This document shows positions 47,355 through 49,407 of a stretch of DNA of 64,000 nucleotides, piece after piece. The stretch comes from Pseudocolwellia sp. AS88 (GTDB lineage: Bacteria > Pseudomonadota > Gammaproteobacteria > Enterobacterales > Alteromonadaceae), in NCBI RefSeq assembly GCF_030551755.1, contig NZ_JAUPEC010000024.1, positions 1 to 64,000 on the forward strand, written 5' to 3'. The number at the start of each line of letters is the position of its first letter. Position 1 is the first letter of the stretch. Under the pieces are notes generated by a model that did not search any database, had not been told where the DNA came from, and worked only from the letters and a program-made list of their open reading frames with translations. The position numbers and the translations under genes were made by a program.

Positions 47355-47643
47355 TTATCGACAGAATTCATTCATTATAAATAAAGTTATTATTCCTGCA
47401 ATTAATCCCGTGACATAGAACCTGTTAACCATTGGCACATTTTCATGCCTCTTATTTATTCCTGCAATCAATCCCACAATATAGAACCTGTTAACCATTG
47501 AAACATTTTATGCCTCTATCTATTCCTCCAATCAATCCCGCAATATAAAACCTGCTACCATTTGCACATTTTCATGTCTGTTAATTACCGACGAAATACG
47601 TTCATTATAAATAAAGTAAATATTCCTGCAATCAAGCCCCACA
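47355..47643. repeat. Decayed tandem repeats derived from the benE 3' end
   Basis: A unit starting TTCCTGCAAT occurs at 47393, 47459, 47523 (TTCCTCCAAT) and 47633, the last inside benE. The first three are spaced 66 and 64 bases and share CAATATARAACCTG and CACATTTTCATG-type segments. The outermost copy, read on the minus strand, encodes GLIAGIITLFIMNEFCR and a stop. This is nearly the benE C-terminus (GLIAGIFTLFIMNVFRR and a stop). The region therefore looks like a duplicated gene tail plus expanded short repeats. Confidence 0.8.
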
Positions 47644-48760
47644 TTACTGAACTAATACCCAACATGCTCAAGTCTGATGCTGTGACTAAAAAGGTGATCA
47701 TTGACGCTTCCAGATAATGCTCATCCGATAAAGATTGTTTAATACTATTTGTGATAGTACCAAATAAGGCCAATCCCGCTAGTGCAAAAATTAGTGCGGC
47801 TGGAAATGTAGAAAACACTCCAATGAGGTAACCAGAAAAAATCCCCATAAGAATATAAAAAATGCCTCCAGCAACAGCTGACCAATAACGTTTATTAGGA
47901 TCTGCGTCTACATCTTCACTCATGCACAAAGCCGCAGTTATCGCAGCTAAATTTAAAGAATAACCACCAAAAGGTGCTGCAACTACATTTGCTAGCCCTG
48001 TAAAGCTCAGTATTTTTGAAATGGGCGCTTTATATCCATGTGCTTTTAACACAGCAATTCCAGGTAAATTTTGTGCTGCTATAGTTACAATAAAAAGAGG
48101 AATACCAACACCAAGCACACTCTGCATAGTGAAATTGGGTGCTATGTATGTAAGCCCAACAAAAGTAAATTTGGCATCATTAGGTAGGATCAGACCTGTT
48201 TGATCCGCAACGATTACACCAGCAGCTAATACAAACAACATAGTGTATTTAGGAAAAACACGCTTACTAACAAGATAAACAATAAACATAACCATAATAA
48301 GAAAAGGCTGTGTATTCATTTGATCAAATACACCTATTCCAAAATTAACTAAAACACCTGCTAACATCGCTGTTGCCAATTGAAAAGGGATTTTATTCAT
48401 CAGCTTTTCAAACCAACCGGTTACACCACATAAGAATATGAGTACGGCAGAAAAGATAAAACCTGCAACAGCTTCATTTATCGTGAGCCCTTGGGCATTA
48501 CCAATTAATAATGCTGCACCAGGAGTCGACCAAGCAACTAAAATAGGAATACGATAAAAATATGATAGCGCTATGCTACTAATGCCTAGCGATAAACCTA
48601 AAGTAAATAGCCAACTAGCAGCAAGATTAGCATCACCACCAAAATTAATAACCATTTGATAAATAAGCGCAATAGAGCTTGTAAAACCAATTAGAACAGC
48701 AACAAAACCAGCAAGAGTAGCGTTTAATACTCGATTGACTAACAAAGACCAGACTCCCAT
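47585..48760 (-). CDS. BenE/YdcO-family transporter
   Basis: Inner-membrane transporter of the benzoate:H+ symporter (BenE) family, 391 residues with about 12 hydrophobic helices. Family-like segments are AGFVAVLIGFTSSIALIYQ at the start and ITAALCMSEDVDADPNKRYWSAVAGGIFYILMGIFSG in the second half. It is divergent from an XRE-cupin regulator, the same pairing as ydcO/ydcN (sutR) in E. coli, so it is closer to YdcO than to a benzoate pathway gene. No benzoate catabolic genes are nearby. The substrate is unknown. Confidence 0.88.
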   Translation of the reverse strand: MGVWSLLVNRVLNATLAGFVAVLIGFTSSIALIYQMVINFGGDANLAASWLFTLGLSLGISSIALSYFYRIPILVAWSTPGAALLIGNAQGLTINEAVAGFIFSAVLIFLCGVTGWFEKLMNKIPFQLATAMLAGVLVNFGIGVFDQMNTQPFLIMVMFIVYLVSKRVFPKYTMLFVLAAGVIVADQTGLILPNDAKFTFVGLTYIAPNFTMQSVLGVGIPLFIVTIAAQNLPGIAVLKAHGYKAPISKILSFTGLANVVAAPFGGYSLNLAAITAALCMSEDVDADPNKRYWSAVAGGIFYILMGIFSGYLIGVFSTFPAALIFALAGLALFGTITNSIKQSLSDEHYLEASMITFLVTASDLSMLGISSVMWGLIAGIFTLFIMNVFRR

Positions 48761-48852
48761 AATAAGACGTTTGTATGTTTTAACGTACGCTTGAAAAATA
48801 TTTTAATTATTACTTATAACACCGTGCGCAATAACGCACAAGGAGAATCCAT

Positions 48853-49407
48853 ATTAGCCTTCCTCATAATATTATCGGCCTTCAACTAAAGTCAGCAAGA
48901 AGCAATAAAGGCTGGAGCCTTGATACTACAAGTAAAAATACTGGTGTTTCAAAAGCCATGTTAGGTCAAATTGAACGTGGTGAGTCAAGTCCAACAGTAA
49001 GTAAATTATGGGAAATAGCCAATGGTTTTGCACTACCCTTAACTTATTTCTTTGGTGAATTAGAAAGTAATAATGTAGAGCCTAAAAAACTCATTACGGA
49101 AAAAAGCATCGCTGTTTCTACCTTATTTTCTTTTGATCCGGCAACAAAAAGCGAAATTCTACTATTAACTTTAGAGCCAGCACATCAACATATATCAGTA
49201 CCGCACAGTAAAGGCGTAATAGAACACCTTATTGTTATTGATGGTGAAATGGAATATTTCATTAACAACCAGTGGCATCACTTAAAACAAGGTGAATTTG
49301 TGAAGTTTAACGCAGATGTGGAGCATGGATATCGTAACCTGTCAGCTAAAACAGCAACGTTTCATAATGTGATTTTTTATACGGATGAAGGTAAAAAAAA
49401 CACATAA
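48853..49407 (+). CDS. XRE-cupin transcriptional regulator (SutR/YdcN-like), probable ATT start
   Basis: The HTH_3 domain (about 6-60) is followed by a cupin sensor (about 100-175). An ATG at 48958 would drop the first HTH helices. The frame is open upstream to a stop at 48832 and encodes SLPHNIIGLQLKSARSNKGWSLD, which aligns with family N-termini. No ATG, GTG or TTG occurs there. AAGGAG (48840-48845) is followed after exactly 7 bases by ATT 48853, the likely start. The product would be 184 residues. It is divergent from the BenE-type gene and probably regulates it. In E. coli the relative controls sulfur use. Confidence 0.85.
   Translation: MSLPHNIIGLQLKSARSNKGWSLDTTSKNTGVSKAMLGQIERGESSPTVSKLWEIANGFALPLTYFFGELESNNVEPKKLITEKSIAVSTLFSFDPATKSEILLLTLEPAHQHISVPHSKGVIEHLIVIDGEMEYFINNQWHHLKQGEFVKFNADVEHGYRNLSAKTATFHNVIFYTDEGKKNT

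Follow-up and report, generated by a model that had tools for sequence, protein, structure and literature searches.

The regulator gene at positions 48853-49407 of the window (the whole 64-kb stretch of Pseudocolwellia sp. AS88 DNA that was analyzed) appears to be translated from an isoleucine codon instead of ATG, GTG or TTG. With a probability of about 0.82, it encodes a SutR/YdcN-type regulator whose start codon, ATT here and ATC in the sister species, is set by an AAGGAG Shine-Dalgarno (SD) sequence, which would lead to weak, IF3-limited initiation in combination with autorepression, and a similar arrangement would exist in the genus Moritella. Taken for itself, the assignment of the translation start to ATT 48853 is very probable from the sequence comparisons described below. 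The features of the region are listed in Table 1.

Table 1. Features in and around the regulator gene (positions of the window).
Feature	Position	Strand	Basis
Proposed start codon ATT (ATC in the congener)	48853..48855	+	Congener; alignment with relatives
SD sequence AAGGAG, 7 nt (48846-48852) before ATT	48840..48845	+	Sequence; AAGGAGAAT identical in the congener
sutR/ydcN-type XRE-cupin regulator gene, 184 codons from ATT	48853..49407	+	Pfam; alignment with SutR
In-frame upstream stop TAA (TAG in the congener), within the palindrome	48832..48834	+	Sequence
First in-frame ATG, read as internal Met36	48958..48960	+	Within predicted helix 3
BenE-family transporter gene, divergent neighbor, equivalent of E. 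coli ydcO	47585..48760	-	PF03594 (1.4e-129), TIGR00843
Palindrome GTGCGCAATAACGCAC, presumed autoregulatory operator adjoining the SD	48824..48839	+	Motif counts
Possible -10 TATAAC, with TTGAAA at 48791-48796 and an 18-nt spacer	48815..48820	+	By eye

The initial annotation had placed ATG 48958 in frame with a stop at 48832 and had found no ATG, GTG or TTG between them, and all three statements were borne out by reading the sequence. The open frame ends with its stop at 49407 and contains ATG 48958 as codon 36. In the congener, too, no canonical start codon is present in frame between the upstream stop and codon 36, and in the 37 nt from the end of the operator to codon 9 none occurs in any of the frames, neither in the window gene (L001) nor in the congener (L002).

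The product contains an HTH_3 domain (PF01381, residues 12-66) and a Cupin_2 domain (PF07883, residues 105-173), both above the Pfam cut-offs. It shares 42% identity with SutR/YdcN of E. coli (71 of 168 columns), for which a role in sulfur utilization is given in the title of Yamamoto 2015 (cited in PMC8464067). Residue 12 is aligned to residue 12 of SutR, so that 11 residues precede the first aligned residue with the ATT start, as is the case in the E. coli protein. A profile match to the solved chain 1y9q_A has an E-value of 6.8e-54. The best match among the NCBIfam models, the PuuR equivalog NF007408, was rejected, as it reaches 39.8 bits against a curated cut-off of 211. A structure predicted from a seven-row alignment with moderate confidence (mean pLDDT 64.6) shows helices at residues 7-19, 23-30, 34-41, and 47-57, with Met36 falling inside the third HTH helix. 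Among 153 homologous loci of more than 2 kb, 143 gave a match to BenE, the orientation being checked in a part of them.

An AAGGAG exactly 7 bases before the ATT, as claimed initially, is indeed present (48840-48845, with the gap at 48846-48852). Its duplex energy of -8.5 kcal/mol is equaled or undercut in 8 of 106 homologous rows, including itself and the congener, and compares with -0.7 to -5.4 kcal/mol in 13 listed ATG-starting relatives. For the sister sequence L033, a value of -4.7 or, with a slightly wider stretch, of -8.4 kcal/mol was obtained, which derives from a run of G far from the ATG. On both strands of the 64-kb window, 13 AAGGAG sites were counted, 8 of which are followed 5-9 nt later by ATT, ATC or ATA. 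The combination is common by chance in the AT-rich DNA of the window, which makes the motif weak evidence when taken by itself, and the case for the ATT rests on the congener, the codon-level selection, the position relative to the homologs, and the second genus. None of the 13 sites has an ATG, GTG or TTG at this distance, and the full AAGGAG seems to be little used at ordinary starts within the window.

Three Pseudocolwellia genomes were compared. Apart from the genome of the window, the gene is carried by G001, with a protein identity of 84%, whereas no match to the regulator gene was obtained in G002 (94% complete). The congener G001 has ATC at the proposed start codon, preceded by an identical AAGGAGAAT, and TAG as upstream in-frame stop. 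The ATT start would have been called into question by an ATG at this codon in close relatives, and the ATC of the one congener that has the gene speaks for the opposite.

Other near-cognate codons, used alone or several jointly, are an unlikely source of the start, even if they fare best among the alternatives. Isoleucine codons also stand at 48847 (ATC here, ATT in the congener), 48871 (ATT in both) and 48874 (ATC in both), and the Moritella run ATT ATT ATY AAT ATT likewise offers several candidates, with codons -29 and -27 being ATT or ATC in 11 of 11 cases (codons of the homologs were numbered by counting back from the G of the GVSKAM anchor). The spacing from AAGGAG to 48847, 48871, and 48874 amounts to 1, 25, and 28 nt, compared to 7 nt for 48853. 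Moreover, residues 1-19 counted from ATT 48853 are identical in both species, whereas the codon just before it differs, being CAT here and AAG in the congener.

A start at ATG 48958, which would yield a 149-residue protein without HTH helices 1 and 2, is still more improbable. As the first canonical in-frame start, it would be the expected choice of gene finders that are limited to ATG, GTG, and TTG. However, the 34 codons before it are under strong purifying selection. In codons 2-35, the two species differ by 14 synonymous and 3 nonsynonymous changes (dS 1.28, dN 0.039), and 12 of the 17 changes fall on third positions (p = 0.0019). The constraint is looser in codons 36-180 (dS 1.74, dN 0.094), and along the entire frame, which is intact, dN/dS lies far under 1. 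From the selection on codons 2-35 it follows that translation in this frame very probably includes the region upstream of ATG 48958. In addition, the HTH_3 domain begins at residue 12, Met36 lies within predicted helix 3, the sequence before the ATG (tttcaaaagcc) is not a good SD, and a canonical start is found about 30 codons further upstream in 204 of the 218 parsed homologous rows. Translation from 48958, which had been named initially as the observation that would speak against the ATT, is thus opposed by the selection upstream and by the location of Met36.

For the census of start codons, rows were taken from GTDB contigs (the best 80 of 495) as well as from whole genomes at the level of family, order, and genus. 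The input consisted of L001-L224 without the five loci L111-L115, which served other purposes, and 218 of these 219 rows were parsed, L224 being missed. The GTDB and whole-genome loci overlap (L037 and L122, for example, have the same start region), and the 218 rows are therefore not 218 species. In the 204 rows mentioned above, the canonical start falls within codons -38 to -27, with the GTDB part being the best 80 of 495. The 14 rows lacking a canonical start in this range comprise L001, L002, and L153, together with eleven rows from the genus to which Moritella sp. PE36 belongs. L153 has ATGs at -43, -47, and -51, which probably reflects an ordinary N-terminal extension. A canonical start was also present in all of another 14 rows, which include one genome from the first count. 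An earlier pattern-based census had missed 4 of 110 loci, all four of which have an ATG near the expected place. As a rough control with a permissive window of 39 codons, the BenE frames found in the same loci were inspected, and 132 of 132 have a canonical start.

The position of the proposed start agrees with that of the homologs. In a MAFFT alignment of seven rows with one gap in Pseudocolwellia, the ATT/ATC shares its column with the ATG of five relatives; counted gapless, the ATG of the relatives is codon -31, one codon upstream of the ATT/ATC at -30. Altogether, the ATC of the congener, the selection on codons 2-35, the position among the homologs, and the situation in Moritella give good support to the ATT start codon that had been suggested from the window alone.

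The regulator gene is present in all 11 genomes compared from the Moritella genus, and in 10 of them no canonical start occurs at codons -38 to -27, the exception being L121 with an ATG at -35. In L118, L120, and L128 the open frame before the anchor contains no canonical start at all. The seven other genomes have an ATG, GTG or TTG in frame further upstream, at -39 to -54, but its site varies by subgroup within a stretch of variable length. The core of the region is the run ATT ATT ATY AAT ATT CAY, with the exceptions of GTT as first and AGT as fourth codon in L128 and ACT as second codon in L130. Codons -29 and -27 are the only ones in this run which are ATT or ATC throughout. Pooled over 55 pairs and counted gapless from the anchor, pN/pS is 0.86 for codons -45 to -32, 0.63 for -36 to -32, 0.25 for -31 to -23, and 0.19 for -29 to -23. 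A part of the high upstream values is due to misalignment, because of upstream indels in combination with the gapless counting. Judging from the decrease, the coding region seems to start near codons -31 to -29. The most likely start is the ATC/ATT at codon -29, which is favored by the SD spacing. The SD itself is moderate and not generally stronger, with -2.9 to -5.8 kcal/mol in 10 of the 11 genomes and -8.3 kcal/mol in L128. At codon -35, ATC is found in 4 of 11, ATG in 1 of 11 (L121), and other codons in 6 of 11 Moritella genomes. The ATG of L121 lies four codons before the conserved isoleucine run and is possibly a regained or alternative start.

These comparisons also bear on two further explanations, both of which are extremely improbable. 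The gene could be a pseudogene or contain a sequencing error, with an ATG being mutated away or misread, and relatives of 60-65% identity do carry an ATG close by; however, this ATG is missing from two genomes, which differ from each other in the bases of the codon, the reading frame is preserved with dN/dS far under 1, and the pattern recurs in the Moritella genus. A sequencing error at the start codon in particular is, judged from the two genomes, very unlikely. Alternatively, translation could begin at a canonical codon before the operator or in a different frame and reach the frame of the regulator by a frameshift or stop readthrough: GTG 48824 inside the operator opens a frame of 21 codons ending at TAA 48887-48889, likewise in the congener, and canonical triplets in other frames are also seen in some of the Moritella rows. 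But the GTG is part of the palindrome and has no SD before it, all frames of L118 and L120 are free of ATG, GTG, and TTG from the operator end to codon -22, as in L001 and L002, and the stop that would have to be read through is a TAA here but a TAG in the congener.

For the gene tree, duplicates, rows with internal stops, and rows shorter than 120 residues were removed, which left 199 rows, and 76 of them were used, each from codon -25. The 13 rows labeled as having an isoleucine start include L121, which has the ATG at -35. In the tree, the sister of Pseudocolwellia is Colwellia ponticola L033 (support 96/92), a row marked as long and less certain, and the sisters of Moritella are L039 and L040, both of which start with ATG (100/97). 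Two changes of the label are needed and forced by supported branches, and a single change was sufficient in 0% of 200 bootstrap trees. Since the two genera stand apart in the gene tree, the near-cognate isoleucine start probably arose twice, being adopted independently in Pseudocolwellia and Moritella. The alternative history of one early gain followed by several losses is longer and less probable.

Directly upstream of the SD lies the palindrome, for which an exact search with GTGCGYWATARCGCAC gave only the site at 48824-48839 in the 4.3-Mb genome. Of 106 homologous rows, 77 contain the pattern TGCG-N6-CGCA in the 200 nt upstream, and in the gap between ydcO and sutR of E. coli two palindrome sites with one mismatch were found, while a shuffled 12-kb stretch contains 0.07 matches on average. 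With a single exact match in the genome, the palindrome is likely a dedicated local operator, at which the regulator is inferred to repress its own gene. The GTGCGNNATANCGCAC-like palindromes upstream of the sutR homologs in these 77 of 106 rows occur in two copies in some of them. A search for inverted repeats with arms of at least 10 nt did not list the palindrome of the window, the arms of which are shorter. The promoter scan did not report TTGAAA-N18-TATAAC (48791-48820), the -35 stretch of which stands opposite a gap in the congener. In Pseudomonas, XRE-cupin regulators are described as local inhibitors which bind palindromic sites, some with autoregulation (PMC7901475), and a palindromic motif is given for E. 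coli YdcN (PMC8464067).

Based on these data, the following mechanism is proposed. Translation would start at ATT 48853, or at ATC in the sister species, set by the AAGGAG 7 nt upstream. The pairing of the initiator tRNA with AUU or AUC is imperfect, and complexes of this kind are destabilized by IF3, so that each mRNA would yield little regulator protein, which is still expected to begin with methionine. Together with repression at the palindrome before the SD, the weak start would hold the autorepressor low, while the strong SD would offset a part of the loss caused by the weak codon. In Moritella a similar state would have been reached, probably independently. It is plausible by analogy that the weak start keeps the regulator level low. 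The stronger SD in Pseudocolwellia looks like a compensation, however, which may cut against a simple low level; for the poor starts GUG and UUG, compensation by better SDs is described in general (PMC5622118).

Near-cognate starts are already known as a class, and what appears to be new is the sutR gene, the swap between ATT and ATC, and the parallel in Moritella. Among the titles and openings of abstracts listed by a literature search, in which subscription journals were mostly outside, none reported these three. A more far-reaching interpretation, which we regard as rather doubtful, is that in this family of regulators selection has favored AUU/AUC starts on at least two occasions as a brake on the translation of an autorepressor, the start codon being a regulatory element in itself that is conserved in almost an entire genus. 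If this is true, the BenE transporter and the regulon would be tied, through low and IF3-sensitive initiation, to the condition of the translation apparatus. Characterized examples of near-cognate starts are few among bacterial genes, and two cases, probably independent, in a single orthologous regulator form a natural replicate for the question why a poor start codon is accepted by selection. Pipelines that assume ATG, GTG or TTG would truncate the regulator, leaving no working HTH, or misplace its start. Codon-level selection upstream of the first canonical start provides a comparative signature by which more cases could be found.

The gene shares the traits of the near-cognate-start group, as it has no canonical start at its N-terminus, a strong SD, and conservation among relatives. 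The infC gene of E. coli has an ATT start and is subject to autoregulation by IF3 (described in PMC5472188). It resembles the window gene in having an AUU start behind a strong SD (TTGGAGGAATAAGGTATT, with TTGGAGG and 8 nt before ATT), but its product is IF3, whereas a DNA-binding regulator is encoded here, so that no direct IF3 loop follows. In the three Pseudocolwellia genomes, infC (L113-L115) reads TTTGGAGGAACATGGCTATTAAAGG, in which the E. coli-type ATT is kept and ATG GCT lies two codons before. As GGAGG is located 3 nt from the ATG and 9 nt from the ATT, the ATT may be the true infC start, but because of the preceding ATG this gene is not a clean control.

For sigR of Streptomyces, a GTC start (GTT in two species), an extensive conserved ribosome binding site, and repression by IF3 are described in PMC5472188. 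Like the window gene, sigR is a regulator gene with a non-canonical start codon that is swapped among species. It differs in the codon GTC, in encoding a sigma factor with an anti-sigma partner, and in being demonstrated by experiment, whereas the evidence for sutR is comparative. Staphylococcus aureus belongs to a different phylum than Pseudocolwellia. According to PMC13009471, its genes ccpN (AUA) and cvfC1 (AUU) have conserved non-canonical starts with extended SDs, and reporters reached about 10% of the AUG output in poor medium and, for ccpN, up to 30% in rich medium. CcpN is an HTH repressor and CvfC1 a small putative regulator, both from families unrelated to SutR. The pcnB gene encodes poly(A) polymerase and, unlike sutR, not a regulator. 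In E. coli, its expression is limited by an AUU start, as stated in a title cited in PMC13009471.

A poor start codon in a repressor gene is also represented by lacI of E. coli, where the GTG start is described to lower the repressor and to raise basal target expression with an effect on fitness (PMC11445065). GTG is a standard alternative start, which ATT and ATC are not. The closest likeness in gene and context is given by SutR/YdcN of E. coli itself, an XRE-cupin protein encoded divergently from ydcO (BenE) and accompanied by similar palindromes. However, sutR starts there with an ATG behind GGAGGAG, while in Pseudocolwellia an ATT or ATC very probably takes this place behind AAGGAG.
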